Assembly (NCBI RefSeq): GCF_013283745.1
Contig: NZ_JABSTZ010000002.1
Coordinates: 434,001 to 498,000 of the forward strand
Direction: 5' to 3'
From: Aeromicrobium stalagmiti
GTDB lineage: Bacteria; Actinomycetota; Actinomycetes; Propionibacteriales; Nocardioidaceae
DNA: 64,000 nucleotides
The notes under the pieces were generated by a model. That model saw only the letters and a list, made by a program, of their open reading frames with translations, made no database searches and had not been told where the DNA came from. Positions 6,441 through 48,154 of the stretch are shown here, piece after piece; position 1 is the stretch's first letter; each line of letters begins with the position of its first letter. Made by a program: the position numbers and the translations under genes.

Positions 6441-6445
6441 GTGCG

Positions 6446-9133: not shown

Positions 9134-9290
9134 GTTCCCGTCCCTGTCGTGCCGAAGACCCGGCTGATCGCTGTGACCTGGACGACAATACATACTGTCT
9201 GAGTCGGCAGTGGTCGGTTTGGTCTCTACCCCGCTTGTCTGATCTAAGAAGTCGACGATTCCCGAGCCACGAGAGCAGCGAGGACCTGAA
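9134..9290. promoter_or_regulatory. divergent intergenic region
   Basis: About 157 bases between the preferred TTG start of the DUF262 fusion gene and the TTG of the plus-strand trio. It should hold both promoters. No convincing paired -35/-10 boxes stand out by eye. If the fusion gene starts at 9298 instead, this region is coding. Confidence 0.35.
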
Positions 9291-9860
9291 TTGAGCAATC
9301 ATCAGATAGGCCCGGTCAAGCTGCTGACGTCGGTGCTGGCAAGCCGAGAGGACGTGGTGGTCGGTACGGACGGGTCCGAGCACGAGGCCTGGATCGTGCC
9401 TGCGGTCGTGGTCGGGCCACACCAGACGTTGCTCGAGATCGAGCTTCGGCGATGGTCTGGCGGCGGTGAAGTTGTCACGGCATCGCGGGGCGACAGCCAC
9501 CCGTATTTCCAGCGTCTCGTCCAGGGTTGCCGGCTGGGAATTAGGGACACAGAGGATGGGGGAGCGGGTGCAGCAATGGTGGGGATCGTCGAGTGGGATG
9601 TCTCGAAGCAATGGGCCAGCGTGAAGAAGGCCTCTCTCGAGCGCCTCGGCCAGGCGATTGGCGCCTCGGCACGGGACGAGCTGGTCGCCCACGGGGTCGA
9701 TGAGATCGGCACCCGCAAGGAACTGTGGGGCGACAGCAGCCCCCGGCAAAACTTTCTCGAGGCTCGTTTCGATCCCGACGAACCAGTGGTTCCGCTGGCC
9801 ATTTACGTGATGACGAGGGTCCTCCCCGTGCTGGCTGCGGTCGACGAGGTTGCACGATGA
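9291..9860 (+). CDS. hypothetical protein, first gene of a defence-island trio
   Basis: A 189-residue protein I do not recognise. TTG start at 9291 with CGAGGA seven bases upstream. The N-terminal half looks beta-rich (VVVGTDGSEHEAWIVPAVVV, then LLEIELRRW) and the C-terminal half helical, ending LPVLAAVDEVAR. No signal peptide, membrane segment or metal-binding cluster is visible. Its stop overlaps the start of the next gene by 4 bases (ATGA), so it is translationally coupled to the HEPN-like gene, and possibly acts as its partner or inhibitor. It is divergent from the Z1 operon. Confidence 0.65.
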   Translation: MSNHQIGPVKLLTSVLASREDVVVGTDGSEHEAWIVPAVVVGPHQTLLEIELRRWSGGGEVVTASRGDSHPYFQRLVQGCRLGIRDTEDGGAGAAMVGIVEWDVSKQWASVKKASLERLGQAIGASARDELVAHGVDEIGTRKELWGDSSPRQNFLEARFDPDEPVVPLAIYVMTRVLPVLAAVDEVAR

Positions 9861-10906
9861 CCCGGCCGTTCTCTGTGTACCTCCCAGTGTCTCTCGGGAT
9901 GGACCAGCTGATTGCGACACAGTCAACTGTCTTGGCCGCTGCTGGGTGGGATCTTGGGCATCACTACGACGCCTTCATGCGGCCCGTCCACGGAACTAGT
10001 TGGTTGGAGGACCTTCGCCACCAGCGTTGGGCAGAAACGAGCGCGAGCCTCTACAAGTACAAGCTCACGTTGATCGACCCGTCCTTCACGATCACTGAAC
10101 CGTTGAAGAACTCATCGTCGCCGCTCCGCGAGTGCCTTCCTTCTGGCCACGACTTCTACGACTGGCTCCATAAGGCATGGAACATTCGCAACGCCGCGCA
10201 GCACTTCGATCCGCCGATGACACTTGAGCTGTTACGGGAGCGGGTGAAGGCCTTCGGCATGCTTGGAGTGCTCGTCAAGCTTGACCTTGCTAACGACTGC
10301 AAGCTCTTGATGGAGCGGCTGAACCACCTCGCTCAGGGTGGGGTGGTTCAGCCTCCTGGAGTGATTGTCGAGCAGCTCGAGCTGTCCCTGGCAGGCGAGA
10401 AGGCTAAGGCGAAGGAACTAGCCCTCCAGGTCGAGGCGGTGCGCCGGCAGCTCTCGGTAGCCGCGAGCGCACAGACTGACGTCGTCGCGTCTGAGATCGA
10501 GTCGCTGAGAACGGATCTCCTGGCGGCTGAGGCTGAGAAGGCGCTCGCGGTCGAGCGACTAGAAGTCATGCAGACGGCCATCCAGGTCTCGAACGCGGAC
10601 GTACGTGGTAGCGCGAACGATGTCATCGATGGTCTGACGCCCGGAGACCCTTGGCCAGCCGCTCCTGGCACACGCATCGTTCGTCTGCTGCCGCACGTGG
10701 GCGACCTATTCGATCCGTTGCGCGAAGAACTTCTCTCTGACTCCGTGGGAAAGTCTGCCGTTGATTCCAGCGTCCTCTGGCGACAGTTCTTGCCGAACGG
10801 AGGCCCGGTGCATCTCAACCAAGCCGGTCAGGCATGCGCGCTCGTCGGCGCCCAGTACATCTATCTTGGATCGCTCGACCACCGCGCAATCCACTACTCC
10901 GACTAG
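9857..10906 (+). CDS. HEPN-like protein with coiled coil
   Basis: A 349-residue protein. I choose ATG 9857 because it overlaps the upstream stop (ATGA); the frame is open further upstream but that part is antisense-like. Around residues 112-118 the sequence reads WNIRNAAQHF, an R-x4-H motif with the RN...H pattern of HEPN ribonucleases, in a helical setting. After it, roughly residues 175-245 form a heptad-rich coiled coil (SLAGEKAKAKELALQVEAV and on). The C-terminal ~90 residues (APGTRIVRLLPHVGDLF) are unassigned. HEPN proteins in defence islands cut RNA on phage attack. The HEPN call rests on the motif and its setting only; Swt1-type HEPN proteins are the closest family I can suggest. Confidence 0.6.
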   Translation: MTRPFSVYLPVSLGMDQLIATQSTVLAAAGWDLGHHYDAFMRPVHGTSWLEDLRHQRWAETSASLYKYKLTLIDPSFTITEPLKNSSSPLRECLPSGHDFYDWLHKAWNIRNAAQHFDPPMTLELLRERVKAFGMLGVLVKLDLANDCKLLMERLNHLAQGGVVQPPGVIVEQLELSLAGEKAKAKELALQVEAVRRQLSVAASAQTDVVASEIESLRTDLLAAEAEKALAVERLEVMQTAIQVSNADVRGSANDVIDGLTPGDPWPAAPGTRIVRLLPHVGDLFDPLREELLSDSVGKSAVDSSVLWRQFLPNGGPVHLNQAGQACALVGAQYIYLGSLDHRAIHYSD

Positions 10907-10948: not shown

Positions 10949-11773
10949 GTGGTCATTGACTTCATCTATCCCATCAACTCGCGGTCTAACTATCATCTGA
11001 TCGGCAACGACGGTGCCGAACAACCGATCACTCCAGAGAACTTGTGGCGTGAGATCGCGAGCTCTCGGCCCGATCGGGTCGATTCGTTCGTGCTCGGGTC
11101 GTCGTTCAAGGTGATGCAGCCCTTGGATCGCGTGTGGATCTACTCGGTCGACGCGCAGCAGGTCGTCGCCCTTGGAGAAGCGCAGAGGGTTTACAAGACT
11201 CTCGATGGGTGGTTCGTCGATCTTGTCTGGGACAGGGAGATGACCCTAGGATTGGAGTCCGATCCTATTGCGCGCGGCGACCTGTGGACGAGAGTGCAGA
11301 CCACGGCAAGGGCGAACAGTCGAACGATAGCCGTGCTGCGCCGGCGACTGAAGGGGGCCGCCACCGCAAAAGTTGAAGTCGACGTGCGGAGCGACGAACG
11401 CCGGCGGGTGCTGCGTGAAGTTGTGGCTCGTCAGGGCCAGGGAGTGTTTCGTCAAGCCCTGCTTGAGGCTTACGACGGCAAGTGTGCTATTAGCGGGGAG
11501 TCGTGCGAGGCGGTATTGGATGCGGCCCACATTGACCCCTACAGCGGACCCAAGAGCAACCTCGTGTCGAACGGTTTGCTGCTTCGTACCGATCTGCACA
11601 CGCTGTTCGACTTGGGCCTTCTTCGTGTGGATCGAAACTATCGGGTCCGCGTCGACTCCGCCGTTGTCGGAACGACGTACGCGAAGCTTGATGGCAAGCA
11701 GATCGCGCTGCCTGCGATGAAGTCGCAGATGCCCTCGCTCGCCGCACTCGGCCGCCGTCTGGAAGGCCATTAG
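10949..11773 (+). CDS. HNH endonuclease with EVE/PUA-like N-terminal domain
   Basis: A 274-residue predicted nuclease. The C-terminal HNH_2-type domain shows GVFRQALLEAYDGKCAISG, then LDAAHIDPYSG, then SNGLLLRTDLHTLFDLGLL, nearly the same layout as the nuclease at 1803-2522. The N-terminal ~120 residues contain DRVWIYSVDAQQVVALGEAQ and a following WFVDLVWD strand, which resemble EVE/PUA-like folds that bind modified bases. This suggests modification-dependent cutting, but the EVE assignment is tentative. GTG start at 10949 with AAGG upstream, 43 bases after the HEPN-like gene and probably in the same transcript. Confidence 0.78.
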   Translation: MVIDFIYPINSRSNYHLIGNDGAEQPITPENLWREIASSRPDRVDSFVLGSSFKVMQPLDRVWIYSVDAQQVVALGEAQRVYKTLDGWFVDLVWDREMTLGLESDPIARGDLWTRVQTTARANSRTIAVLRRRLKGAATAKVEVDVRSDERRRVLREVVARQGQGVFRQALLEAYDGKCAISGESCEAVLDAAHIDPYSGPKSNLVSNGLLLRTDLHTLFDLGLLRVDRNYRVRVDSAVVGTTYAKLDGKQIALPAMKSQMPSLAALGRRLEGH

Positions 11774-12107: not shown

Positions 12108-14249
12108 ATGACACCTGTGAAGACCGACGTCGTGACACCCATGCAGATCTTCAATCTTCCGCAGCACTTCGTGGTGCCGCTGTTCCAGCGCCCGTACGTC
12201 TGGGAAGAAGAGGAACAGTGGTATCCGCTCTGGGCTGACGTGCGGCGAATTGCAGAACTGCGGATCGCTGAGCCCCATCGCGATGCGCACCACTTTCTCG
12301 GTGCCGTGGTGCTCCAAGCGCAGGAGGGCGCTGTCCACGTGGTCCAGGCCCGCAACGTGATCGACGGCCAGCAGCGTCTGACCACGCTCCAGATCTTGAT
12401 GGATGCCGCCAGCGCAACCCTCGACGAGTCAGGTCAAGACCGACTTGCGTCGCAATTGGAGCGCTACACGCATAACAGCGAACTTGATATTCCTCCCGGC
12501 GATGAACGACTCAAGATCCGCCACAGCAACCGAGATCAGGGGGCCTATGACGAAGTGATGTCCGCCGATATCCCGGTCGCATACGACGCGCTCCAGCATC
12601 ACGGCACCCGCATCGTCAGGGCCCACCGGTTCTTCAGCGGGGCATCACGTGAATGGCTCGGAAGCCCTGAGGAGGACCTCTTCAAGTCCAGGGCCACCGC
12701 GCTTGTCTGGGTGCTCACGCAGGGCCTACAGCTCGTGGCCATCGACCTCACCGCTCAGGAGAACTCGCAGGAGATCTTCGAGACGCTGAATGCGCGCGGG
12801 ACCCCGCTGACCGCTGCCGATCTAATCCGGAACTTCGTGTTTCAGCGGCTCGACAGTGAGGGCGGCGACACCGCGAAGGCGTATGAGAAGGACTGGCCCT
12901 TCGAGTCGACGTTCTGGGAGGAACAGGTCGGCGTTGGTAAGCAGTACATCGGCCGCAGTTCCCTGTTCCTGAACCAATGGCTCGTCTCGCGGACAGGTGA
13001 CGAGATCAGCCCTTCGTCAACATTCACCCGGTTCAAGCACTACGTCGAACACGAGTCGAACCTGCCGATGGCTGATCTGTTGCCGCTGATTAAAGAGGAA
13101 GCCGACAGCTACGAACAATGGGTGAAGGCGGCGAAGGACTCGGCTCGCCAGCTGGGTGTCGTGGAAATGGCTGTGTATCGAATGACGGCAGCGCAGTCAC
13201 AGGTCCTCATGCCACTGCTGATCTGGTTGCACCAGCCGGGTCGCAATCTAGATGCCGGCGAAATTGGCCAGATCGTCACTGCCGCCGAGAGCTGGCTGAT
13301 TCGGCGTGTCCTGATGCGACAGGCCCTTGGCGGGGAGATGGGTCGGACCATCGAGTCCATGATCAAGGCTTACGACCACGTGCCGGCGCCGGAAGTTGCG
13401 GATCGTGTAGTTGCTCACCTGTCGCGCCTCAACGTCACCAGTACGTACTGGCCGGGCGACCATGAACTGCGTCGCAATCTCGAGGAGACCAGCGCCTACA
13501 ACGCCTATCTGCGTGCTCGCTTGCGGATCGTGCTGGAAGCCGTTGAAGACTCCTATCGGAGGAAGATGAAGGAGTCCCAGCTCGAGCGCAAGGGCTACCC
13601 GATTGAGCACATTCTTCCGCAGTCGTGGGAGGCACATTGGGCTGTGGCTGGCGACGAGGCCGTTGAACTACGGCGCTCGCGAGTTCACCGGCTCGGGAAC
13701 CTCACGCTCTTGACGGCCAAGCTCAATTCGACGGTGTCGAACTCGAACTGGTCGAAGAAGCGCAAGGCGCTGCTGAAGCACAATACGATCAAGCTCACTG
13801 GTCTGCTTGTCGAGCGAACCGAAGATCGAGACTGGGACGAGACCCTCATTGACGCGCGAACTACTGAGTTGATCGAAGCGATCTTGAAGATTTGGCCGGT
13901 GCCAGCTGGACACACGGGCGAGGTAGTAGACCCGAAGTCGAAATCGAACGACTGGGTCAAAGTCAAAGACCTAGTTGAGTCAGGCTTGATCAGCATTGGT
14001 GCGGTACTTCGACCCGGGTACGGCGAGTACAAGGGACTTGCGACCGTAGCCCGCGACGGTGGGCTCGAGTTGGACGGCGAGAGTTTCAAGACGCCGTCTG
14101 GCGCGGCGAAACACGCCACGGGCCGTCCGACGGTTGACGGTTGGCGATACTGGCGGTTAGACGACGGTCGATCGCTCAAGGACGTCCGTGCAAGTTTCAC
14201 CGGAGTGCAGCCCGAAATGATTGATCTCGATGAGAGGGGCGAAGCCTAG
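12108..14249 (+). CDS. GmrSD-like DUF262-DUF1524 nuclease with RAMA-like tail
   Basis: A 713-residue single-chain homologue of GmrSD, the type IV enzyme that cuts modified phage DNA. The N-terminal DUF262 NTPase domain shows VPLFQRPYVW and VIDGQQRLTT (DGQQR at residues 86-90). The DUF1524 His-Asn-His nuclease domain shows YPIEHILPQSWE near residue 500, then HRLGNLTLL and SNSNWSKKR. The last ~100 residues (LVESGLISIGAVLRPG, then FKTPSGAAKHATGRPTVDGW) match RAMA, a domain proposed to read methylated DNA. ATG with GGAGAGGG upstream. Its TAG shares one base with the GTG of the next gene, so all three genes to 20403 form one operon. A RAMA tail on a GmrSD-like enzyme fits modification sensing; the RAMA call is by pattern. 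Confidence 0.9.
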   Translation: MTPVKTDVVTPMQIFNLPQHFVVPLFQRPYVWEEEEQWYPLWADVRRIAELRIAEPHRDAHHFLGAVVLQAQEGAVHVVQARNVIDGQQRLTTLQILMDAASATLDESGQDRLASQLERYTHNSELDIPPGDERLKIRHSNRDQGAYDEVMSADIPVAYDALQHHGTRIVRAHRFFSGASREWLGSPEEDLFKSRATALVWVLTQGLQLVAIDLTAQENSQEIFETLNARGTPLTAADLIRNFVFQRLDSEGGDTAKAYEKDWPFESTFWEEQVGVGKQYIGRSSLFLNQWLVSRTGDEISPSSTFTRFKHYVEHESNLPMADLLPLIKEEADSYEQWVKAAKDSARQLGVVEMAVYRMTAAQSQVLMPLLIWLHQPGRNLDAGEIGQIVTAAESWLIRRVLMRQALGGEMGRTIESMIKAYDHVPAPEVADRVVAHLSRLNVTSTYWPGDHELRRNLEETSAYNAYLRARLRIVLEAVEDSYRRKMKESQLERKGYPIEHILPQSWEAHWAVAGDEAVELRRSRVHRLGNLTLLTAKLNSTVSNSNWSKKRKALLKHNTIKLTGLLVERTEDRDWDETLIDARTTELIEAILKIWPVPAGHTGEVVDPKSKSNDWVKVKDLVESGLISIGAVLRPGYGEYKGLATVARDGGLELDGESFKTPSGAAKHATGRPTVDGWRYWRLDDGRSLKDVRASFTGVQPEMIDLDERGEA

Positions 14250-17200
14250 TGCCCGACATCTTCGACAACCTGCAGACAGAGTCCGCGATTGGTCCTGCCC
14301 TCCAATCCGCGCTGTCCAATTTCGACACCTGCGATGTGGCGACCGGATACATAGACCTGCGCGGATGGGCGAGTTTCGCTGACATCGTCGACGGTAAGCT
14401 CGAGAATCGTCAGCCCGGTGGCCCCTCCATCGCACGCGTATTGGTTGGCATGGTTATGCCCGCTGACTCTGCACTCATGCTGTCGGCGCTGCAGGACGCG
14501 GTTCAGCCACCGCCTTACGGTTCCGACATGAACGACATGGGCAAGGCTCTCGCAGCTAAGGAGCAGTTGGTCAAGCACCTGCGGACCCAGCTCATGCGTG
14601 GGTTGCCGTCAGACACCGAGCAGCGCACGCTTCAACAGCTCAAGAGCCATCTTGAGTCAGGGGCTATGGAGATGAAGGTCTTCACGAGTGCACCGTTGCA
14701 CGGCAAGACTTACATCTTCCACGCGCCCGGCAATGAGATGGCCGAGCGGCGCGCGTACGTCGGCTCTTCTAATCTCACGAATGCGGGGCTCTTCGGGAAC
14801 CTGGAACTGAACATCGACGTCAAGGACGACGACGCCTCGAAGAAGCTCGCAGACTGGTTCGCGGACCGATGGGATGACCACTTTTCCCTCAAAATCACAG
14901 CAGAGATCATCGAACTGATCGAAGAGTCTTGGGCATCTGACTTTCAGCCGACGCCATACGAGGTCTACCTCAAGGTCTGCTACAGCTTGTCGGAAGACGC
15001 CCGTGAAGGGATGGGCTACGTCCTGCCGCCATCAATGCAGAACCTCCTCCTTGACTACCAAGAGACTGCTGTGCGCACGCTGGCTCGACGGATCGTCAGG
15101 CGCGGCGGCACGATGCTGGGCGATGTCGTCGGCCTCGGCAAGACCCTGACCGCCGTCGCAACGGCGCTCATGCTCGAAGCCGCGGAGGACTACACGACCC
15201 TGGTCCTGTGCCCGAAAAACTTGGTCCACATGTGGGAGGAGCACCTGGAGAGGTATGGCCTCGGTGGCGCCCGTGTCGTGCCGTACTCGATGGCTGACAA
15301 GAAGCTGCCGGAGCTCAAGCGGTTCCACCTCGTCATCTGCGATGAGTCACACAACCTCCGCAACAACAGCACGAAGGCCTCTGAAGCGATCCAGGACTAT
15401 GTCCGTCGCAACGGCTCGAAGGTCCTCCTGCTCACCGCGACTCCGTACAACCTCGCCTTCGCGGACGTGGCGAACCAGATTGGCCTCTACATCGACGATG
15501 ACGAGGATCTCGGCATCCAGCCCACTGCTGCTATGGCCAAAGACCCCACTCTCGTCGACAAGGTCGACGGCAAGATCACGACGTTGGCCGCGTTCCGCCG
15601 ATCCGAAGAGCCTGAGGATTGGAAGCGCCTAATGAGCGATCACCTCGTTCGGCGTACCCGCTCATTCATCAAGCGCACCGCCAAGAAGGAGACCGTTACG
15701 CTCCCGAATGGCAAGACTGAGGAGCGCGAGTATCTTCAGTTCGCCAACGGTCAGCGCTTCCACTTCCCGACCCGGGTGCCTCGCCCGTTGAGCCACGACT
15801 TCGCCAATGACGACCCGGCCAGGCTGATGGAGGAAGAGGACACCCTTGACGCGGTCCGTGACCTCACCCTGCCTCGCTATCGCCTCGCCGACTACGACGA
15901 CCCCAAGGCAGTTCACTCGGACAACGACGCCAAGATCTTGGCTGACATCCGATCAGGCCGCGGCAATGTCAGTGGGTTCGTCCGGATCGGCCTCTTCAAG
16001 CGACTGTCGTCTTCCGGCCACTCGTTTATCCTCAGCTTGCAGAGACAGCGCGCACGGAACGAGCTCTTCATCTTTGCGATCGAGAACGATCTCGACGTGC
16101 CGCTCGGAAGCTTCAGCGACCACCAGTTCGTGGTGTCCGACGACGACCTCGAGGAGGACGAGGACATGTACGGCAGTTCGGAGTCGCAGTATCGCGAGCT
16201 CAAGCGCCGCCTGCCGTCCTCGACGAAATGGCTGGGAACGAAGGTGTTCAAGACGACGCTGAAGAAGGATCTGCAGCGTGACAACCGGATCCTCACCGAA
16301 TTGCTTGACAGCTTCGGCACGTGGGACGCAGCCAAGGACTCGAAGGTCAACGCGCTGGTCGACCTTCTCCGCGACCAGCATGCCGGTGACAAGGTCCTGG
16401 TCTTCACCGAGTACGCCGACACTGCCGCATATGTCGCTCAGGCACTCAAGGACGCCGGCATCCCGAACGTCGGACTTGCCTCTGGGGATTCCGACGACCC
16501 TGCCGCAATTGCTCGAAGGTTCTCGCCGAACAGCAATCGGCTGCCCGGCGAGGAAGACGATCCTGAGGAGGTCGCCGACCCGATTGACGTTCTCATCGCG
16601 ACGGACGTGCTGTCCGAGGGACAGAATCTCCAGGACTCCCACATCGTCGTGAACTACGACCTTCCCTGGGCCATCATCCGCATCATCCAGCGTGCTGGAC
16701 GTGTCGACCGCGTGGGCCAGAAGTCAGACTCGGTCTTCATTTACCTCATCACCCACGAGAAGGTCGAGCAGGCGATCCAGCTTCGCCAACGGATCAGGCG
16801 GCGTCTCGGTGACAACGCCGCCGCGTTCGGCTCCGATGAGCGCTTCTTCGGGGATGCCAAGGAAGTGAACATGCTGGATGACCTCTACAAGGGGGCCGTC
16901 CCGTCGGAGGATGACCTCGATCAGGACGAGGGCGAGGCCGATGCCGTCAGCGAGGCCTGGCTGGTCTGGTCCCGCGTGAAGGACGACAAGCCAGACCTGG
17001 CAGGAAAGATCCTCAAGATGCAGGACCTCGTTCACAGTACTCGCGCCCCGTACGACCACGAAACGAAGACCGGAGTCACGACTTTCGCCAGCACCACGTC
17101 GGGCGTCGACGCCTTCGCTGCTTCGTTCGACGCCCCTGATGGCGGCGACACGATCGATCGGTTGCTGACCCCACTCGAAGCACTCCAAATCTTCCGTGCT

Positions 17201-17569
17201 CAGGAGACCACTCTGACTGCAGCCCTGCGTCCCGACCACTTCGGTCGTGAGTCGGATCTGATCAGAGGCAAACTCAGCAACGAGATGGTGGCCATCGGAA
17301 ACCTTCGCGGCGTCCGCAAGTGGGCAGTCGAGCGGTTGGGAGGAACCATCTACGGAGCTGAGGCGAGCGCGGCGCTGGAGGCCATGATGGACCGGCCCCT
17401 CACCGAGCACACCAACATCCGCCTCCGGCAGGCACGACGCAGCAAGTATTCCGACCAAGATTTGGCCGACATGGTGAAGCAGCTCCATGATGAGGAGCGC
17501 CTCGTGATCGGTTCAACCGAGAAGGACGAGATCAAGATCGTGTGCTCGATTGGGGTGACCCCGCGATGA
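14249..17569 (+). CDS. SNF2-family helicase with N-terminal PLD nuclease domain
   Basis: An 1106-residue fusion. The N-terminal ~230 residues form a phospholipase-D-type domain: LHGKTYIF gives the HxK pair at residues 151 and 153, followed by YVGSSNLTNAG. One HKD motif is seen, so catalysis would need a dimer. The helicase part has Walker A GDVVGLGKT (291-299), ICDESHN near 372, LLLTATPYNL, and a C-terminal QRAGRVDRVGQ box, the SNF2/HepA pattern. The protein should translocate on double-stranded DNA and cut it. GTG start overlaps the upstream stop by one base and its end overlaps the methyltransferase start by four bases (ATGA). PLD and SNF2 proteins also occur in DISARM, but there as separate genes (drmC, drmD). 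Confidence 0.92.
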   Translation: MPDIFDNLQTESAIGPALQSALSNFDTCDVATGYIDLRGWASFADIVDGKLENRQPGGPSIARVLVGMVMPADSALMLSALQDAVQPPPYGSDMNDMGKALAAKEQLVKHLRTQLMRGLPSDTEQRTLQQLKSHLESGAMEMKVFTSAPLHGKTYIFHAPGNEMAERRAYVGSSNLTNAGLFGNLELNIDVKDDDASKKLADWFADRWDDHFSLKITAEIIELIEESWASDFQPTPYEVYLKVCYSLSEDAREGMGYVLPPSMQNLLLDYQETAVRTLARRIVRRGGTMLGDVVGLGKTLTAVATALMLEAAEDYTTLVLCPKNLVHMWEEHLERYGLGGARVVPYSMADKKLPELKRFHLVICDESHNLRNNSTKASEAIQDYVRRNGSKVLLLTATPYNLAFADVANQIGLYIDDDEDLGIQPTAAMAKDPTLVDKVDGKITTLAAFRRSEEPEDWKRLMSDHLVRRTRSFIKRTAKKETVTLPNGKTEEREYLQFANGQRFHFPTRVPRPLSHDFANDDPARLMEEEDTLDAVRDLTLPRYRLADYDDPKAVHSDNDAKILADIRSGRGNVSGFVRIGLFKRLSSSGHSFILSLQRQRARNELFIFAIENDLDVPLGSFSDHQFVVSDDDLEEDEDMYGSSESQYRELKRRLPSSTKWLGTKVFKTTLKKDLQRDNRILTELLDSFGTWDAAKDSKVNALVDLLRDQHAGDKVLVFTEYADTAAYVAQALKDAGIPNVGLASGDSDDPAAIARRFSPNSNRLPGEEDDPEEVADPIDVLIATDVLSEGQNLQDSHIVVNYDLPWAIIRIIQRAGRVDRVGQKSDSVFIYLITHEKVEQAIQLRQRIRRRLGDNAAAFGSDERFFGDAKEVNMLDDLYKGAVPSEDDLDQDEGEADAVSEAWLVWSRVKDDKPDLAGKILKMQDLVHSTRAPYDHETKTGVTTFASTTSGVDAFAASFDAPDGGDTIDRLLTPLEALQIFRAQETTLTAALRPDHFGRESDLIRGKLSNEMVAIGNLRGVRKWAVERLGGTIYGAEASAALEAMMDRPLTEHTNIRLRQARRSKYSDQDLADMVKQLHDEERLVIGSTEKDEIKIVCSIGVTPR

Positions 17570-20403
17570 CCGCCGACATCATCGCTGAAGCCGACAAGGG
17601 AGACTTCAGCAAGCTCTTCCGTGTCGACCTTTCCTGGCACAGTCCAGATCAGGCACCCATCGAAATCGAACTCGATGATGGTTCCAAGGTCAAGGCGACC
17701 AACGTCTCTTCGTTTAAAGGGGTGCGGGTCTGGGAAGTCCCTGCCCTGCCCGGCTCCGCGGGGGAAGCCAAGCTCGACCAGGCCATCGCGAAGAACTCCA
17801 CCAATCGACTGGTGATCTTCCACGATGGCGACAAGCAGGTGTGGCGTTGGCCGTCGCGCACCGCAAAGGGGGCGGGAGTTATCTCTCGGCCTGCGCGGCA
17901 TGTACACAAGGTCGGGACTCCCGACCTTCAATTCGAGTTGAAACTCGATGCGATTCGCCTGCCGAGCGACGCCGTGCTCGATGTCAACGACTTGCTCTCG
18001 CGAGTTCGTGGCGCATTTGATGTCGAGACAAAGAACGAGACAAAGCGTGCATCCAAGCTCATGGCGCAGATGTACGCCGCGGTTGAGAAGGGATATTCTT
18101 CAGGGTCGGACCCTAAGAAGCGCGACCATGAAATCTCGGTCAGCCTGGCCCGTGTCCTATTCCTGCTCTTCGGAGACGACACCGAGATGTGGAAGGACGC
18201 CAAGGCCGAGCCGATACCAAACCTGTTCCAAGACTTCGTCAAGGACCACACCGAGCGGGACGGATCAGACATCGCCGACCGTTTCAACGCACTGTTTGAG
18301 GTGCTCGACACTGCTCCGGATGGTCGGAGCGGGCTGCCGGCCGAGCTAGCGGCCTTCCCGTATGTCAACGGCGGGATCTTCGACGAACACATCATCCTGC
18401 CTCAGCTCGACAATGACTTCCGCGACGCGATCCTCGCCGCATCAGCTGTGGACTGGTCGACAATCAGCCCGGCCATCTTCGGATCGATGTTCCAGTCCGT
18501 CCGTGACGCGCAGACTCGACGAGAGCTCGGAGAGCACTACACGTCCGAGGAGAACATCCTCAAGACGCTAAATCCGCTGTTCTTGGACGAGCTTTGGGCA
18601 GAGTTCGAGCACATCCTCACACTCCAGAAGGGGAAGCGCCAGAAGCTTCACGACCTTTGGAAGCGGCTCGGTGAGATCCGATTCATGGACCCAGCGTGTG
18701 GCTGCGGGAACTTCATCATCGTCGCCTACCGCGAGTTGCGTGGCCTCGAGCTTCGTCTCATGGACGCTCTGGCAACACTCACCGACGGCGAAGAGACGGT
18801 TGCCCTGCCCGCCGACTGGACGCACCTGCTGAAAGTTAGCCTCGACCACTTCTTCGGGATCGAGATTGACGAGTGGCCTGCGCGGATCGCAGAGACCGCA
18901 ATGTTCCTTATCGACCGGCAAAGCGACCTCAAGATGAAGGAGCGATTCGGGATGGCGCCCGAGCGCCTACCGATTCAAAAATCTGCCCGGATCGTTGTTG
19001 GTAGCGCACTCCAGGCGGACTGGCCGAGCATCCTGCCGCCGTCGCAGGACGTAGTTGTCGCTGGGAACCCACCCTTCCTGGGGCACAAGGAACGAACGCC
19101 CGAGCAGGGCGATGAACTCAGGGCCGTGTGGAAGCGGACCAACATCGGCCACTTGGATTATGTGACGGCCTGGTACGCGAAGGCTAGCGAGTACTTCACG
19201 GGCGTAGATGGAAAGTGGGCGTTCGTGTCGACGAACTCCGTCGTCCAAGGCGAAGCGGTCCCCATCCTTTTCGGTGCCCTGCATCTGGCGGGGTGGCGGG
19301 TCAAGTTTGCGCATCGGACTTTCCAGTGGTCATCCGAGGCGTCAGGTCAAGCCACCGTGCAATGCGTGATCATTGGGTTCTCGCGGGCCGTAACAAAACC
19401 ACGGCTATTCCTTTACGACTCTCCCAAAGGTGCACCTAGGGAGCACCCTGCGCGCAATATTAACCCTTACCTTGTCGATGCCGACGACATCCTTGTTGTG
19501 CCCCGCTCAATCGGCTTGTCACCTGATCTACCTGAGATCAACGCGGGCTCGACACCCATCGATTGGAACTATCTCTGCGTCGACGGTTCCCAAGTCGACG
19601 CAGTGAGGGCCGACGCCGTGGCAGCCAAGTACCTCCGGAAGTATGTTGGGGGCAAGGAACTAATCCATGACCTCGAGCGCTGGTGCCTATGGATGGATAC
19701 ACCTGGATTCAACCCAGATGACATTCTGAGTAGCCCGGTACTGAAGGACCGCGTCAAGGCTGTCCGGAAAAAGAGAGCTGAAAGCGGCCGCGCCGCGACG
19801 AATGCCCTGGCGGCGACACCGCACCTTTTCGGCGAGCGTCGCCAGCCTCCCGGCCACTACTTGGGTATGCCGCAAACCTTTAGCGAGAACCGGCCATTTG
19901 CCACGGCCGCGCGGCTGGATTCGCGCACCATTGCCTCCATCAAGTTGTTCACCGCGCCAGATCCTGATGGGTTCCTATTCGCCATCGTGTCGTCCTCGAT
20001 GTTCATCACGTGGCAGAAGACGGTGGGCGGCCGTCTGGAGTCTCGCCCGTCGTTTTCAAGTAGCATCGTTTGGCACACGTTGCCGCTCCCGCCGCTGCTC
20101 GCTCCAGAGCGCGTGGCCATCTGCAAGGAGGGCGAGCGGATCGTCGAGGTTCGTGGCAGGCATCCCGGTCGGACGCTCGCCGAGCTGTACAACCCGCAGA
20201 AGCTGCCTGCGGATCTCGCGGCTGCTCACCGCGATCTCGACAAGTTGGTAGATGTCGCATTCGGTGCTCATGAGCTATGTGCAGACGAGGAAGCGCGGCA
20301 AGAGATCCTCTTCAGGCGGTACCAAGAGCTCTCGGCCGCCGAAACCCTTCTGCCGTTAGGGGTCAAGAGGTCATTGAGCAAGAAGGGACAAAAGCGTGCA
20401 TGA
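17566..20403 (+). CDS. MmeI-like class I DNA (adenine-N6) methyltransferase
   Basis: A 945-residue DNA methyltransferase. Motif I DPACGCGNF is near residues 375-383 and motif IV is GNPPF near 505, the NPPF type that methylates adenine N6. The helical spacer typical of MmeI-like enzymes precedes it (FPYVNGGIFDE, then AIFGSMFQSV and GEHYTSEENILK). The N-terminus (LVIFHDGDKQVWRWP) is like that of YeeA/DISARM-type methylases and lacks the PD-(D/E)XK nuclease of MmeI. The C-terminus holds a target-recognition region and ends KRSLSKKGQKRA. I chose ATG 17566 for its 4-base overlap with the helicase gene. It would protect host DNA while the PLD-SNF2 and GmrSD-like proteins attack foreign DNA. The recognition site is unknown. 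Confidence 0.92.
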   Translation: MTADIIAEADKGDFSKLFRVDLSWHSPDQAPIEIELDDGSKVKATNVSSFKGVRVWEVPALPGSAGEAKLDQAIAKNSTNRLVIFHDGDKQVWRWPSRTAKGAGVISRPARHVHKVGTPDLQFELKLDAIRLPSDAVLDVNDLLSRVRGAFDVETKNETKRASKLMAQMYAAVEKGYSSGSDPKKRDHEISVSLARVLFLLFGDDTEMWKDAKAEPIPNLFQDFVKDHTERDGSDIADRFNALFEVLDTAPDGRSGLPAELAAFPYVNGGIFDEHIILPQLDNDFRDAILAASAVDWSTISPAIFGSMFQSVRDAQTRRELGEHYTSEENILKTLNPLFLDELWAEFEHILTLQKGKRQKLHDLWKRLGEIRFMDPACGCGNFIIVAYRELRGLELRLMDALATLTDGEETVALPADWTHLLKVSLDHFFGIEIDEWPARIAETAMFLIDRQSDLKMKERFGMAPERLPIQKSARIVVGSALQADWPSILPPSQDVVVAGNPPFLGHKERTPEQGDELRAVWKRTNIGHLDYVTAWYAKASEYFTGVDGKWAFVSTNSVVQGEAVPILFGALHLAGWRVKFAHRTFQWSSEASGQATVQCVIIGFSRAVTKPRLFLYDSPKGAPREHPARNINPYLVDADDILVVPRSIGLSPDLPEINAGSTPIDWNYLCVDGSQVDAVRADAVAAKYLRKYVGGKELIHDLERWCLWMDTPGFNPDDILSSPVLKDRVKAVRKKRAESGRAATNALAATPHLFGERRQPPGHYLGMPQTFSENRPFATAARLDSRTIASIKLFTAPDPDGFLFAIVSSSMFITWQKTVGGRLESRPSFSSSIVWHTLPLPPLLAPERVAICKEGERIVEVRGRHPGRTLAELYNPQKLPADLAAAHRDLDKLVDVAFGAHELCADEEARQEILFRRYQELSAAETLLPLGVKRSLSKKGQKRA

Positions 20404-20942: not shown

Positions 20943-22643
20943 TCAAGAACTCAATCCAAGGAGCCGATCGGCCTCGCCTGCGATGGCATCGAGTTCGGCC
21001 ACTGCGTCGTTCCGTACACCCTCGGACCTGATGATCTGGTCCTGTGCCGATGTGACCTCCGCCAGGAACGCGTCGAGCGGCGGATCGACGATGGACCAGA
21101 GCTGATTTCTGGCATCTGCTGCGATCCGGTCGGCGTAGCCCATCATCTCCGTGACGAATGCGCTGTGCTGTCGCTCGCTCTCGATCTGAGCACGGTGTGC
21201 GTCACGCTCGTTCTTCCACACGTCGTAGCCTGCGCCGCCGATCTGGATGACGAATCCGCCGACCTTCGCAGCCTTGCCCACCTTGTCCGCGATCTTGACG
21301 GCCTCCCACGGCTTGAACTTCTTTCCGAAGCGATGGCCGATGTCCAGGACGATCTGATGACCATTCGATCCTGCCGCAGAGCGGACCCCGTCGCCGGCTC
21401 CCCACCACGCTCGGCTGTTCTTGATCTGCTTGCTGGCACTTCGCCAGTCGAGGGAAGGTCGCGGACCGCCGCCGGGAGGCCGACCGTCAACGGTCCCGAA
21501 TGAATCGGGAGCGGCGAGATTGACGTCGCCAACTGGTCTGTCGAGCTGCGTCGCTCGATTACTGTCACCGATCTCGATGAGCTGTTCATCGAGTTTGTCG
21601 AACTGCGACTCCGCAAGTCGTGCGATCGAACGGCCAAAGGCGTCAGCGTGTCGTTCAAGCGCCTCCACGAGGCGTGTCTCGGCGCCTGCAAGAACCTGCT
21701 GTGCATTGTCGGAGTCTTCAGGAAGGCTTGTTGCCCGGTCAACGAACGCCTTAACATCCACGAGACTTGACGACTTGAAGTCGGCCTCGGATGTTCTGAA
21801 GGTTTTCTCGATCATGAGCCGCCGCTCAGAGACGGCTGAGCGTTGACTCGCGAGAAGGGACAGCGCGAGACGGGCTCGTTCATCTGCGATGAACAGCCCC
21901 TGCGCCTCGTCACACAGCTGCCGGGTCAGGTGCAGCGGTTGCCTCAGTCGTGCCAGCTCGCCACGGTCCTCGCTGATCTGGTTGATCGTCGCGCGGAGGT
22001 CGTCAATGCCCGAACGCGTCCGAAATGCCTCGGCTCGTGGCCCGCCTTCAAGGCTGCGGAGATAGTCGACAGAGTCCACCTCAACCACGGGGAGGTTGAA
22101 AGTCGTTGTGCCCAAGGCTGCTTTCACGGCTTGCTGACGAATCCCCGGTGCTGCTGCCTGCTTGCCCACCTGGGTGATGACCACGATCATTTGCCCAAAC
22201 AGCTGAAGATCGTTTGCGAGATGACGAAGGAAGTCACGGGAAGCGTCGTCAAACAGTCCTACATGGATCACGAAGAGAATGAAGTCGGCGTCCCCGATAG
22301 CGCTGAGGGCCAAGTCGTCGTGCGAACGCAACCCAGACTGTACGCCCGGTGTGTCGACCAGCACGACAGCGCCATCCCACGGGTATGAGGTAACCGTGTC
22401 GGTGGCGATGTCAGCGTCGCTCGCAGGCTCCACCGCCCTGTCCGTCAGTGCGGTGATCAGCTTTGACTTGCCGCTGCTGAACTGACCGGTCAGCACCATC
22501 TGTGGAGTGTCCCGGTCCTCTGCGTGCGCACGACTGAGGAGTGAGGCGGCTATGGGCCCATCGCTGGACTCGAGGACGCGTCTCAGACGGGCAAGCAACA
22601 CCTGTGAATGCTCGGGCAACTCATGGATGAGAATCGTGGACAT
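20943..22643 (-). CDS. dynamin-like GTPase, last gene of the SNF2-dynamin operon
   Basis: A 566-residue dynamin-superfamily GTPase. Start ATG 22643 has GGAAGGTGAG upstream and lies 23 bases inside the previous gene; the frame is open further upstream but that part has no such site. G1 is GQFSSGKS (residues 53-60), G3 is DTPG (97-100), and the place of the NKxD guanine motif reads VITQVG, a non-standard form. A long helical stalk follows with many Arg/Glu heptads (AETRLVEALERHADAFGRS). Near the C-terminus VGKAAKVGGFVIQIGGAGYDV is a short Gly-rich hydrophobic segment that may insert in membrane. Pairs of bacterial dynamins act together (DynA/DynB, LeoA/LeoBC), so this is likely the partner of the GTPase upstream. 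Confidence 0.88.
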   Translation of the reverse strand: MSTILIHELPEHSQVLLARLRRVLESSDGPIAASLLSRAHAEDRDTPQMVLTGQFSSGKSKLITALTDRAVEPASDADIATDTVTSYPWDGAVVLVDTPGVQSGLRSHDDLALSAIGDADFILFVIHVGLFDDASRDFLRHLANDLQLFGQMIVVITQVGKQAAAPGIRQQAVKAALGTTTFNLPVVEVDSVDYLRSLEGGPRAEAFRTRSGIDDLRATINQISEDRGELARLRQPLHLTRQLCDEAQGLFIADERARLALSLLASQRSAVSERRLMIEKTFRTSEADFKSSSLVDVKAFVDRATSLPEDSDNAQQVLAGAETRLVEALERHADAFGRSIARLAESQFDKLDEQLIEIGDSNRATQLDRPVGDVNLAAPDSFGTVDGRPPGGGPRPSLDWRSASKQIKNSRAWWGAGDGVRSAAGSNGHQIVLDIGHRFGKKFKPWEAVKIADKVGKAAKVGGFVIQIGGAGYDVWKNERDAHRAQIESERQHSAFVTEMMGYADRIAADARNQLWSIVDPPLDAFLAEVTSAQDQIIRSEGVRNDAVAELDAIAGEADRLLGLSS

Positions 22644-24834
22644 CGGGCTCACCTTCCAAGGGTCTTTCACGGATCGTGACATTCGCGCCCGAGTGAATCT
22701 GGGCGAGCGCAACCCAGGCTTCCCGCGTGCCACCGGGTGCGGGTTTGCTCAGATCGACGACTAGTCGCCGTTCGCTCATCGATTCGACCGTCAGCGGGGC
22801 GGTCGTCATGCAACGGAGCACCTGGAGCGCATTCGATTCTGGGCGGCCCGTGCTGCGCGTCGGCACGATTCGTTCAACCCCGCCTGTGGCGGGATAGAGA
22901 ACGACTTCGGCGAATTCAGCTTCCGGGAGTGCGACGGCGATGCCCGCACCACGCCACCGATCGGCGCGCGAGACCGCTGACGCGACCCGTGTGAATCCGT
23001 TCATGCGAAGGAGTTCCCGACAGAGTTCGGTGTCCAGATTGGCGACTGCAGACTCCAACTCCCGAGTAGCGGTCTCGAGACAACCGATCGCTAGATCAAG
23101 CGCTTCCTCTCGTGCAAGCCGGCGCTCATGATCGGACTCGACCGCATCGAACCAGTCCTGCTGCACCTTCGTGCGGATCTTGTCGACTTCGGCCTTGAGC
23201 TGCACGAGCAAGGGACTCAACTGCTTGCTGATCTTCTTTCGTCGCCGCTCGCGAACCTTGGAGGGACTCCTGAACAGTTGGTCACCAAGCCAGTCGATGG
23301 CCCGGTCGACGCCGAGAAGGCTGCCTGTCAGACCGATCAACGCACCGACCCCGGTGCCGATAGCGGTTCCTGGTCCCGGACCGAAGAGAGTACCGACGAG
23401 GCTCCCCACCTTCGCGCCGGCAGCGAGCCCGCCGACGCCGGCGGCCATCCGGCCGCCCACCTTGACCACTCGATTGCCCCAGATCTCGCCTCGTCCGCCG
23501 AGCCCGGCGAATCCGTCGCTGTCGACGTGAGCCCAGTCCGCGGCGACGTCGTATGCGATGATGTTGAGATCTGCTCGCAGGCGGAGGCCGATCTCATTGA
23601 TCGCGTCCTCCAACTCGTTCCGTAGGCCCTTCAGCTCGTGATTCCACTTTTTGTTGATCTGGTCCAAGCCCAGGTCCGGGTCGACCTGCTCGATCCATCG
23701 TTCACGTCTCGATATCGCGTTGGTCGTAGCGGACTGAATCTCGTCGCAGGCGTCGTCAATTCGGCGATGAGCTCGCTTCCGCAGCGACGTCCGAGTCCCT
23801 TGGTACGACGCGGCGGCCGACCGCAACTCCGACACCTGGGTGTTCGAAGAGGTTGCAGCCTCGAGGAGGTCAATGCGCGGAGCGTCAAACGCACTCACGA
23901 CTCGACGCTGGGCGGCCGTCTGCTCTTGCTGGTGGCGGAGCGACTCCAGCAAGGTGTCGATCCGGCTGTTCGACCTAAGCACATGGGCGACGTCGGGTTC
24001 CAGCAGTCCAGACGTCGAGAGGAGCGCCGCCTGAGCGTGGACCTGAAGTGCGCAGATGTACTGACCGCCAGCTCTCGCGAGGTGCCGTTGGACTGGTACG
24101 AGGTTACCCGTGGCGTCGCCCCCAAAAACTTGATCGGGCTCGTAGAGCATGTCCTCCAGGCCAAGTTCGTCGCTCACGTCAGCGAGGCAGTTTAGGGCGA
24201 CCAGGATCGGCTTCCCCAAATCGGAGAGTCGCTCGAGTGCACGGCCTGTCTGTTCCTGAGTCGCCTGATCTGTTGCCACCCACAAGATCAGATCCGCGCC
24301 CGCTACCTCTTCGAATGCTCTCGCATAGTCATCCTCGCCATCCATGGCACCGACGCCGGGGGTGTCGACGACATCGATGGCGAGTCCCTGCACGGCGCGC
24401 GAACAACTCTCTCGCGTAGTCCGTTGTCCGCCGACGCCGATGCGCGCTCCGTCTCCGCCAGACAAGAACTCGAACAACGTGCTCTTGCCGGACATCGTCC
24501 GCCCCATGAGGACAACCCTGAACGGTCGATCGACGTCCTGATCTGCAATTTGAAGTGATCTGTTTCGCAGGTCAGATGCTGCGTCGTCGAGCGCATTGCA
24601 GATCGGCTCGATGATGTCGCCAGTCTCATCCCGGAACCCGACAAGGCCGTCCCTGACTCGAGCGGTCACACGGGTCAGGAGGTCAGCCCCGTTGGCCGCT
24701 GCGGCGACAAGGCCTACGCGCAAGTCGTCCAATGAGGTGAAGCTGGCGTGGTCTGGGCCGAAGATGAGTCTGCGACCATCGTCGTCGCCAGCGCGCATGG
24801 GCTGGTTGGGCACTGTGAATCTCATGCGGACCAT
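22621..24834 (-). CDS. dynamin-like GTPase with Gly-rich membrane segment
   Basis: A 737-residue dynamin-superfamily GTPase. G1 is GRTMSGKST (111-119), G3 DTPG (157-160) and G4 NCLAD (215-219). A helical stalk follows. About residues 455-510 form a glycine-zipper-like hydrophobic stretch (AAGVGGLAAGAKVGSLVG, continuing GTAIGTGVGALIG), a good membrane-inserting paddle. After it come basic helices (KVRERRRKKISKQL) and a beta-rich C-terminal domain absent from the downstream GTPase. ATG 24834 lies 6 bases after the helicase stop; ATG 24825 is an alternative. It is likely to act at the inner membrane, possibly sealing or disrupting it during infection, as proposed for Eleos dynamins. That role is inference. 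Confidence 0.9.
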   Translation of the reverse strand: MVRMRFTVPNQPMRAGDDDGRRLIFGPDHASFTSLDDLRVGLVAAAANGADLLTRVTARVRDGLVGFRDETGDIIEPICNALDDAASDLRNRSLQIADQDVDRPFRVVLMGRTMSGKSTLFEFLSGGDGARIGVGGQRTTRESCSRAVQGLAIDVVDTPGVGAMDGEDDYARAFEEVAGADLILWVATDQATQEQTGRALERLSDLGKPILVALNCLADVSDELGLEDMLYEPDQVFGGDATGNLVPVQRHLARAGGQYICALQVHAQAALLSTSGLLEPDVAHVLRSNSRIDTLLESLRHQQEQTAAQRRVVSAFDAPRIDLLEAATSSNTQVSELRSAAASYQGTRTSLRKRAHRRIDDACDEIQSATTNAISRRERWIEQVDPDLGLDQINKKWNHELKGLRNELEDAINEIGLRLRADLNIIAYDVAADWAHVDSDGFAGLGGRGEIWGNRVVKVGGRMAAGVGGLAAGAKVGSLVGTLFGPGPGTAIGTGVGALIGLTGSLLGVDRAIDWLGDQLFRSPSKVRERRRKKISKQLSPLLVQLKAEVDKIRTKVQQDWFDAVESDHERRLAREEALDLAIGCLETATRELESAVANLDTELCRELLRMNGFTRVASAVSRADRWRGAGIAVALPEAEFAEVVLYPATGGVERIVPTRSTGRPESNALQVLRCMTTAPLTVESMSERRLVVDLSKPAPGGTREAWVALAQIHSGANVTIRERPLEGEPDVHDSHP

Positions 24835-30095: not shown

Positions 30096-30598
30096 GACCT
30101 TTGCTCCCCGCGGCAAATGCAATCGATACTTTGCTCGTTGACCATGTGTCCCTCCCGAGAATTGTCACTTCCATGATCGTTGAGTGTGGCTCAGAGCACA
30201 GCGATTTGCGACAAGATGGCTCGATCGGGCCACCGTGACGCGGGCGATACCCCTTTTTAGTTCTGCAGGGCAGACTCGGCCACCGGCCGCTATCAATTGA
30301 ACGACTCTCGAGGGACCTTTGCGCGGGCAGGTGCGGTGCCATCCGAACGTCGGTCAGTCGACTCGCCGCGTCGGCATCAGGGACCCACGAGTACGAACGC
30401 CGCTACAATTGACTAGGTCTTGCCGTGAACAAGGGACAGATGTCCGGCAATGTCCGTGGGGACATTCCCATGATCGCCGCCGACAATTCGTCAGGCGCCA
30501 TGCTGGAACAGTTTGCTTGGATGCATCGGCAGCGGATGACCAGACCTTCGTCCGGACTGACCCTGTTGATCGACGAGAGTCGCGGTGAAGCCGGTCGG
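30096..30598. promoter_or_regulatory. intergenic region upstream of the SNF2-dynamin operon
   Basis: About 500 bases between the SNF2 start and the end of the TM0106 gene, both on the minus strand. It must hold the promoter of the four-gene operon and the end of the upstream operon. Short frames exist on both strands (for example plus 30425-30664) but have no recognisable product or ribosome site. An AT-richer patch at 30250-30265 and a hairpin at 30449-30466 are the visible signals. Base composition changes about here. Confidence 0.45.
30449..30466. repeat. short perfect inverted repeat
   Basis: AATGTCC (30449-30455), GTGG loop, GGACATT (30460-30466). The position, about 350 bases before the SNF2 operon start and 130 bases beyond the TM0106 stop, allows either an operator or a weak terminator. 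No T run follows on either strand. Confidence 0.4.
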
Positions 30599-47945: not shown

Positions 47946-48154
47946 CCAGTCCCGAACTGATTTGGCCCAGCAGCGCCATCCACAGGCGCGTGCGAGGATC
48001 CGGCTTGTCCCCAGCAGCGCTGAGCCCGCTGGCTCGTCGGCCGGGCCCGAGCCACGCTGGATCGATGACCGATCGAGAGGGCTGGCCCGGCTGGTACGAC
48101 AGCCGCCGCCTGCTGCGCGAGGTCGTGTCGGCGGGCCCGGCTAATCTCGCACAC
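47946..48154. other. intergenic region upstream of the SWIM-SNF2 gene
   Basis: About 209 bases. TAATCT at 48142-48147 lies seven bases before GTG 48155 and would fit a -10 box of a leaderless message; no clear -35 box. The helicase frame stays open upstream to 47990, so coding from ATG 48065 cannot be excluded. Confidence 0.4.

Follow-up and report, generated by a model that had tools for sequence, protein, structure and literature searches.

The window analysed here, a 64,000-nucleotide stretch on contig C12 of the 3.68 Mb Aeromicrobium stalagmiti genome, contains three consecutive genes on one strand, encoding a GmrSD-RAMA protein, a phospholipase D-like (PLD) nuclease fused to an SNF2 motor (PLD-SNF2), and an MmeI-type adenine methyltransferase (Table 1). 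We consider it probable that PLD-SNF2 and the methyltransferase form an ATP-dependent restriction-modification pair, in which an adaptor domain at the N-terminus of the methyltransferase mediates loading of the nuclease-motor, and that the GmrSD-RAMA protein is separate from it. The genes overlap by 1 base (CCTAGTGCC) at 14249 and by 4 bases (ATGA) at 17566, where the PLD-SNF2 stop codon meets the ATG of the methyltransferase; the mechanically called reading frame of the latter begins at 17542, and ATG 17566 was taken as its start. Both overlaps had been read correctly in a first-pass annotation of the sequence, as had the domain content of the three genes, which Pfam and motif searches bore out; the same annotation had taken the three genes for one conserved system, and this did not hold, as only PLD-SNF2 and the methyltransferase proved to be conserved together.

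Pfam analysis of the second gene product revealed PLDc_2, SNF2-rel_dom and Helicase_C above cut-off in a single chain, in agreement with the annotated fusion of PLD to SNF2, together with the motifs HGK, GSSN, GLGKT, DESH and QRAGRVDR. The PLD residues H151, K153, N175 and E186, as well as the motor residues, were invariant in all 46 aligned relatives from many phyla, and the alignments display HxK...GSxN...E, which we take to be the BfiI/SauUSI-type pattern. The AlphaFold model (pLDDT 78) had RapA as its best Foldseek match, and residues of about 250–900 matched Swi2/Snf2 motors with Z scores of 16.6–19.4; Pfam found no recognition domain in the protein, whose C-terminal part (about residues 900–1106) is poorly covered by the fold search. 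NCBIfam gave sub-threshold scores only, the highest being 149 bits to NF042964 ('phospholipase D-like domain-containing anti-phage protein'), a model with a cut-off of 1100.

The methyltransferase contained MmeI_hel, MmeI_Mtase, MmeI_TRD and MmeI_C above cut-off, with the motifs DPACGCGNF and NPPF; the MmeI nuclease had been described as lost, and indeed no MmeI_N was found by Pfam at E 0.01, a threshold at which NCBIfam likewise offered no model for the protein. MmeI_N was absent from all five pair-linked MmeI-type proteins scanned (the window and loci L030, L031, L035 and L040), and was present in all four close MmeI-type relatives not beside a PLD-SNF2 gene (L147–L150), which served as positive control; among these controls, the L148 gene is about 3.5 kb from a 612-aa SNF2-related gene that lacks a PLD domain and lies on the opposite strand, and the L150 gene is followed by a helicase gene about 2 kb downstream. 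These proteins warn annotators against simply dismissing an MmeI-like enzyme that lacks MmeI_N as dead or orphan.

We then examined the conservation of these genes (L labels denote loci and G labels genomes). PLD-SNF2 was searched for in plasmids, 296 genomes of the phylum, 197 genomes of the family and a genome-contig collection (11-sequence alignment), and 92 loci were compared, comprising 80 genome contigs, 11 plasmid records and the window. The contigs are the best 80 of 578 confirmed relatives, i.e. the nearest and not a random sample, many of them from metagenome-assembled genomes; according to record titles, the contigs with PLD-SNF2 span well over ten phyla. A methyltransferase gene lay beside PLD-SNF2 (a tblastn match of at least 50 bits, same strand, within 5 kb) in 85 of the 92 loci. 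In 79 it followed PLD-SNF2, starting no more than 200 bases away in 61 and no more than 1.2 kb away in 78; in the other 6 it lay upstream, separated from PLD-SNF2 by 13 to 1638 bases. Among the seven loci that lacked one, six have less than 600 bases of contig downstream, and L095 has 738. Counting by motif only gave 64 of 92, the shortfall consisting of split, frameshifted, truncated or upstream genes. The 4-base overlap of the two genes recurs in many relatives and is the prevailing arrangement in actinobacterial pairs. When the neighbouring genes were clustered, every other family was confined to 15 of the 92 loci or fewer. The pairing is far beyond chance, and since the methyltransferase recurs in this manner, no third family does so, and a GmrSD gene stands in front in the window only (see below), the unit is the pair; we read this core as a restriction-modification system of two genes that depends on ATP.

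Two types of partner methyltransferase were observed. In most actinobacterial loci the partner is of the MmeI type, about 920–950 aa long, whereas an Eco57I/PglX-like protein of about 1100 aa takes its place in other phyla and, among the actinobacteria, in Cryobacterium (L056) and Microbacterium (L037, a fragment). The Eco57I type was assigned by Pfam in seven of seven proteins scanned (L029, L038, L056, L074, L108, L109 and L112), and the other non-MmeI partners, L037 included, were assigned by similarity.

The surroundings of the pair varied among the loci. Integrase-type genes (about 500, 600 and 630 aa) precede the pair in eight of the 92 loci (L030, L032, L043, L044, L045, L050, L051 and L052), a layout that, we presume, recalls the Tn554 transposases; in L044 one of them encodes a phage-integrase protein, and the SAM-like N-terminal domain of another falls just below cut-off. 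The genes downstream of the pair are variable third genes: a GHKL ATPase (HATPase_c_3) follows it in G074 (L137 3837–5816), and L038, L064, L109 and L117 have two downstream genes in common, of about 400 and 226 aa, annotated in L038 as ATP-binding protein and DUF4276. In plasmids of Synechocystis and Picosynechococcus (L029, L039), a small gene and a VapC-family toxin gene lie between PLD-SNF2 and the methyltransferase. Plasmid pSYSX of Synechocystis PCC 6803 carries an Eco57I-type version of the pair; slr6095 was considered as a part of it and dropped, being a type I gene on pSYSX according to published papers, and slr6050, a candidate tag, appears in none of the papers searched; therefore no motif can be assigned to this relative.

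An N-terminal domain common to both methyltransferase types

Profile comparison revealed that the first ~155 residues of the MmeI-type and the Eco57I-type partners align along their length (hhalign probability 99.9, E 1.8e-32; 21 against 42 sequences, with L056 excluded from both sides). By BLAST, the N-terminal domain of L035 matched six of six Eco57I-type partners tested and none of four MmeI enzymes; its remainder was 38–49% identical to the four MmeI enzymes over more than 700 residues, and matched the Eco57I-type proteins in short, weak stretches only. The parts of the window methyltransferase behaved as those of L035, with a body 42–49% identical to L147–L150, and L056 was 46.5% identical to L035 over 159 residues, where the match ends. 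These alignments indicate a domain swap between MmeI-type and Eco57I-type bodies with its border near residue 160: the domain sits on two methyltransferase lineages, so that one of the lineages would have been rebuilt by domain exchange.

The same domain accompanied the nuclease-motor. A reading frame with the N-terminal domain stood beside PLD-SNF2 in 80 of the 92 loci, and also in L064 under another start. It was found in 22 of 72,556 plasmid records, 21 of which are also among the PLD-SNF2 matches listed (60 of 71 rows), 20 of them with both genes side by side on one strand; conversely, the domain is present in 21 of 24 records listed as matching PLD-SNF2 at no less than 33% identity. Among the methyltransferase matches listed (twice 40 of 307 records), those that begin near residue 1 are all in PLD-SNF2 carriers, and the remaining ones begin at residue 102 or later. 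At the genome level, the domain was detected in 3 of the 296 phylum genomes and 6 of the 197 family genomes (the A. stalagmiti genome counted in both), with PLD-SNF2 adjacent in all but one (G270). It is this linkage to PLD-SNF2, not binding, that gave the adaptor its name.

The AlphaFold model of the adaptor is a confident alpha/beta domain (mean pLDDT 82.6). A sequence search of the PDB returned nothing meaningful (best E 0.67), and Foldseek nothing at E<=0.001. In hhalign comparisons with MmeI_N of L147–L150, the actinobacterial domain reached probability 49 and E 2.7e-5, and the Eco57I-side domain gave nothing, so that adaptor and MmeI_N may, but need not, be of common descent. The near-invariant columns of 45 sequences are occupied by hydrophobic or aromatic residues and by glycine, alanine and proline; acidic residues and lysine are absent from them, which makes a nuclease unlikely. 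We read the domain as a portable, non-catalytic adaptor. The chances are about even for the broader proposal that this adaptor makes an adenine methyltransferase the recognition subunit of PLD-SNF2, and that its past moves between Eco57I/PglX-like and MmeI-like bodies have produced, in many phyla, a modular class of two-gene systems for ATP-dependent restriction. If true, specificity, methyltransferase family and nuclease would be exchangeable within this class.

Target recognition and proposed mechanism

We compared the divergence of PLD-SNF2 with that of the methyltransferase parts in 19 of the 21 MmeI-type pairs (L047 and L055 were excluded as split or cut). PLD-SNF2 identities rose and fell with those of the adaptor and the methyltransferase body (Spearman 0.89 and 0.86, respectively; 0 of 2000 permutations in each case), whereas the coefficient for the C-terminal part containing the target recognition domain (TRD) was only 0.31. 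Between the window and L040, identity was 84% in PLD-SNF2 and 38% in the TRD part, the fall beginning near residue 500. Identity in the TRD region fell to about 40% in pairs that are mostly 60–90% identical elsewhere, and in L035/L053 and L053/L062 it was about 40% inside the TRD and back to about 80% beyond it. The dip was clear in five of nine chosen pairs (window–L040, L041–L042, L035–L053, L053–L062 and L035–L036) and partial in window–L041; the other three (L030–L044, L030–L052 and L044–L045) showed no dip, being similar throughout. Such a mosaic is expected if the methyltransferase sets the specificity of both methylation and cutting, because a nuclease with a specificity of its own would not tolerate a changed methyltransferase target.

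In the mechanism that we propose, the MmeI-type methyltransferase would use its TRD to recognise a short and probably asymmetric site, where it would place N6-methyladenine (m6A) on one strand. At an unmodified site it would, through the N-terminal adaptor, load or activate PLD-SNF2, whose RapA-like SNF2 motor would drive it along double-stranded DNA and whose PLD active site, made from two protomers, would cut, probably on collision of complexes. The adaptor, non-catalytic and possibly a dead restriction-endonuclease fold, would fit the methyltransferase to the nuclease-motor, and GmrSD-RAMA may attack phages whose modified bases protect their DNA from the pair. The domains, the pairing, the common N-terminal domain, the swap and the out-of-step TRD part are seen in the sequences themselves, whereas complex formation, translocation, collision, the modification of one strand and the part assigned to GmrSD-RAMA are inferred; hemimethylation and collision-dependent cutting in particular are carried over from MmeI (PMC7261158, where hemimethylation is described) and the type ISP enzymes (PMC7049714, on convergence). 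The simplest model by analogy would be a SauUSI-like machine with a separate methyltransferase as its recognition domain.

Several genomic, structural and functional observations weigh against this mechanism. Linkage between adaptor and nuclease-motor is not without exceptions: in NZ_CP063660 the two are on opposite strands, about 3.3 kb apart; plasmid AP018277 has the adaptor and no PLD-SNF2 among the matches listed; NZ_CP043059 and two Leptolyngbya plasmids (where the match ends at residue 621, a partial gene) have PLD-SNF2 without the adaptor; G270 has the adaptor and no PLD-SNF2 in 3.5 kb of contig upstream; and G263 has PLD-SNF2, split over two contig ends, without the adaptor. The distances of the TRD part and PLD-SNF2 are still weakly correlated, with 23 of 2000 permutations reaching 0.31. 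The fold match of the adaptor is weak: the best VIA-align hit was the N-terminal region of DrdV (Z 4.8, 3.6 A, 107 residues), and further hits with nuclease titles included a putative restriction endonuclease domain, a tRNA splicing endonuclease, HsdR and Sulfolobus HJC; since unrelated folds reach nearly the same Z, the adaptor as a dead nuclease is only a hint. This weakness leaves some room for a DNA-reading or dimerisation domain, linked to the nuclease by descent and not by docking, a reading that we consider rather doubtful: the domain occurs on two methyltransferase bodies and the linkage to PLD-SNF2 goes along with it, and it has no near-invariant acidic residue or lysine that would suggest catalysis.

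The functional observations come from two organisms. Synechocystis PCC 6803 is said to express no active restriction-modification system (PMC6560206), and DnmA-YeeB-YeeC of Bacillus subtilis, the relative kind that has been studied best, methylates DNA, yet according to the reports cited no restriction of plasmids or of three phages was seen under the conditions tested (PMC9973331, PMC7261158). By extension, the methyltransferase of the window might be solitary or regulatory and the pair a relic, as proposed for DnmA; broken copies of the pair do occur, with the methyltransferase split by an insertion element in L034 and truncated in G263, where an Eco57I-type enzyme, about 1.2 kb upstream of PLD-SNF2, is reduced to its C-terminal half. 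We regard this reading as quite unlikely, given the full invariance of the PLD and motor residues among the aligned relatives, the co-divergence of PLD-SNF2 with the methyltransferase body, and a TRD part that diverges as a live specificity would.

For the ATP-dependent pair that we favour, the adaptor bears on a puzzle common to BREX, DISARM, ARMADA and DnmA-YeeB, namely how the task passes to a separate nuclease-motor once a methyltransferase has met a site without modification. The partnership appears here to be settled by one short domain, and evolution seems to have done the swap already; with two genes and one movable domain, the pair would be a small and direct object for testing.

The GmrSD-RAMA gene and the surroundings of the operon

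The first gene product scored above the Pfam cut-offs for GmrSD_N (118 bits), GmrSD_C (93 bits) and RAMA (58 bits), and contained the motifs IDGQQR, EHILP and HRLGNL; GmrSD_N (DGQQR) and the HNH-like GmrSD_C (EHxxP) are thereby present in one chain, as in GmrSD type IV enzymes. Relatives at E 1e-40 or better were detected in 11 of 396 genomes, the A. stalagmiti genome counted, and RAMA was found in four of five relatives scanned.

GmrSD genes occurred in five of the 92 loci (window, L039, L042, L095 and L113, with a weak match of 20 bits in L035), and directly in front of PLD-SNF2 only in the window, among the 70 loci with at least 2.2 kb of sequence upstream. The closest PLD-SNF2 relatives (L040, 84%; G485, 82%; L041, 78%; L042, 76% identity) have no GmrSD gene directly in front, and GmrSD-RAMA relatives of 54–58% identity are not next to a PLD-SNF2/methyltransferase pair. 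The check on co-occurrence of the three genes, which the first-pass annotation had suggested, thus found the joining of GmrSD-RAMA repeated in no other locus examined. In the flanks of seven other GmrSD relatives (L138–L144), a PLD-SNF2 gene adjoined none: in G188 (L143 1231–8942) a GmrSD gene with RAMA follows type I restriction-modification genes, and in G167 (L144 9514–18200) one without RAMA ends an operon of a DpdE/DrmD-like SNF2 gene, in which Pfam shows no PLD domain, and a DrmMI/Eco57I-type methyltransferase gene.

These distributions bear on whether the three proteins could be one system, in which RAMA would read the m6A of the partner methyltransferase and so separate self from foreign DNA. 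The tight overlaps of the genes and the recurrence of GmrSD in restriction-modification operons such as those of G188 and G167 speak for such a system; its restriction to the window among the loci with room upstream, the bare fronts of the closest relatives, and the separate lives of the nearest GmrSD-RAMA relatives render it improbable in our judgement. GmrSD-RAMA is probably a separate add-on type IV enzyme that joined the operon, and RAMA is at most a putative reader of m6A. A precedent is the island of BREX and BrxU, where a GmrSD-family type IV enzyme is encoded beside a methylation-based system, as GmrSD-RAMA is here, and the two are reported to give complementary protection (PMC8565348, PMC10952713); unlike in the window, the partner is another system, and the passages of these papers considered here mention no RAMA in BrxU. 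Since GmrSD genes attach to adenine-methylation systems, as BrxU to BREX, a second independent layer is favoured over a third subunit. Restriction of unmodified DNA combined with sensing of modified DNA, as envisaged in the first-pass annotation, is possible as two separate layers in one operon. For annotators, a GmrSD gene that shares an operon need not be part of its core.

Table 1 Features of the operon and of a possible accessory module in the window.
Feature	Position	Strand	Basis
GmrSD_N + GmrSD_C + C-terminal RAMA protein, 713 aa; type IV-like nuclease	12108..14249	+	Pfam, motifs
RAMA domain of GmrSD-RAMA, residues 612-697	13941..14198	+	Pfam RAMA, 58 bits
PLD-SNF2 nuclease-translocase, 1106 aa, core gene	14249..17569	+	Pfam, alignment, AlphaFold model
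PLD nuclease domain, ~residues 1-215 (boundary inferred)	14249..14893	+	PLDc_2 at residues 125-208
MmeI-type adenine-N6 methyltransferase lacking MmeI_N, core gene (945 aa, ATG at 17566)	17566..20403	+	Pfam
Methyltransferase N-terminal adaptor domain, ~residues 1-160	17566..18045	+	hhalign, BLAST, plasmid linkage, model
MmeI target recognition domain (TRD)	19480..20097	+	Pfam MmeI_TRD, 172 bits
Two small overlapping genes (9291-9860; ATG 9857 to 10906), possible accessory module	9291..10906	+	phmmer

A consensus scan of the operon yielded promoter and terminator signals not above those of shuffled sequences, which is weak evidence in this organism. Many defence-like genes surround the operon in the window. 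The two small genes at 9291–10906 match genes of L135 at 114 and 179 bits (phmmer); in that locus, from a member of the same genus (G485; L135 3991–5588), their relatives come immediately after the pair, joined by overlaps of 4 bases. Pfam found no family in either of the G485 module genes, nor in the second of the window genes.

Further genes of the window were noted on both sides. Two overlapping dynamin-like genes (20943–24834, minus strand; PADLOC LeoA 203 bits and LeoBC 164 bits) are convergent with the operon, and a UvrD-like helicase and a DrmD-like SNF2 helicase (422 bits to a DrmD model) occupy 24841–30122 on the minus strand. On the same strand, a second DUF262 gene (GmrSD_N without GmrSD_C, NsnA-like, 89 bits) adjoins an MzaC/helicase-like gene at 3678–9298, and an RNase_H_2 + AAA helicase protein (MkoA-like, 134 bits) is encoded at 30599–34093. 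The plus strand carries paralogous HNH_2 proteins at 1803–2522 and 10949–11773 (107 bits to each other, in one island) and a DpdE/ZorD-like SNF2 protein at 47990–51433 (827 bits).

Comparison with known systems

DISARM had been named as a partial likeness of the operon, and some of its parts are indeed DISARM-like; the likeness is a loose one, with PLD-SNF2 scoring 110 bits to DrmD models (PADLOC) and the methyltransferase 63 bits to DrmMI, over part of the protein, against 861 bits to the type IIG model PDLC03598. The drmMI identity was accordingly rejected for this gene. Like ARMADA and DISARM, the pair has a Swi2/Snf2 (BrxHII/RapA-like) helicase next to a PglX-like methyltransferase, termed YeeA-related in ARMADA (PMC12458937); unlike them, it has no DrmB-family gene nearby, and its PLD is fused to the motor. 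The earlier statement that no drmB lies beside the operon stands: the MZB/DUF1998 family of DISARM drmB has a single match to PF09369 genome-wide, in a 785-aa frame on contig C1. For DrmA, PADLOC gave only generic helicase-level scores, in searches that included none specific to DrmA.

Type-2 BREX-related loci come closer, with an N-terminal HKD (PLD) nuclease on a Swi2/Snf2 helicase and an N6-methyltransferase, as they are described in PMC12839542, and differ in adding a DUF499 ATPase and DUF3780. These loci, together with the DrmD-type scores of PLD-SNF2, could suggest that the pair is the decayed remainder, or one part, of a DISARM or DUF499 BREX-related system, with the other genes elsewhere in the genome. 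We hold this to be very improbable, and such membership is largely refuted: DUF499 had 0 matches in the A. stalagmiti genome (a control search was positive in Thermotoga maritima), it is absent from 14 of 15 further carriers of the pair (genomes or plasmids at hand) and lies about 16–18 kb from the pair in the 15th, the sole DrmB-type match is on another contig, and no third family recurs near the pair. A DUF3780 search gave no match, its control being likewise silent.

The type IIL enzymes (MmeI, DrdV and L147–L150) have the same helical spacer, methyltransferase, TRD and C-terminal domains as the window methyltransferase; in the latter, the PD-(D/E)XK nuclease of MmeI_N is replaced by the adaptor, and the nuclease would be supplied in trans. 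SauUSI, a type IV enzyme of Staphylococcus aureus, combines PLD, a superfamily 2 (SF2) motor and a recognition domain, translocates and cuts, and is proposed to shred DNA between sites (PMC7913695). PLD-SNF2 resembles it as a PLD nuclease fused to an SF2 motor, which in SauUSI comes with ATP-driven translocation and a dimeric PLD site (PMC7913695), and differs in that SauUSI has its own C-terminal domain for modified cytosine, whereas specificity in the window probably comes from the separate methyltransferase. A paper of 2008 describes neighbourhoods in which a Rad25-like helicase bears an HKD domain (PMC2292703). The literature searched, from which most subscription journals and supplements fell outside, held no description of the stand-alone pair or of a common or transplanted adaptor.

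DnmA-YeeB-YeeC of B. subtilis, in the accounts given of it, comprises an MmeI-family adenine methyltransferase without the endonuclease motif, beside a helicase and a third, nuclease-like gene (YeeC, T5orf172/GIY-YIG), recognises a non-palindromic site and is proposed to be a type I-like system (PMC9973331, PMC7261158). Compared by description, it shares with the window an MmeI-like methyltransferase without nuclease beside an SF2 helicase; unlike in DnmA-YeeB-YeeC, the helicase of the window has an N-terminal PLD domain and precedes the methyltransferase, and the third gene is GmrSD-RAMA and is not conserved. The pair is neither DISARM nor a DUF499 BREX-related system. Its kind is known in outline, from the nuclease-motor fusion of the Type-2 BREX-related loci and from the methyltransferase and helicase of DnmA-YeeB-YeeC; together with SauUSI, these two are its nearest precedents.

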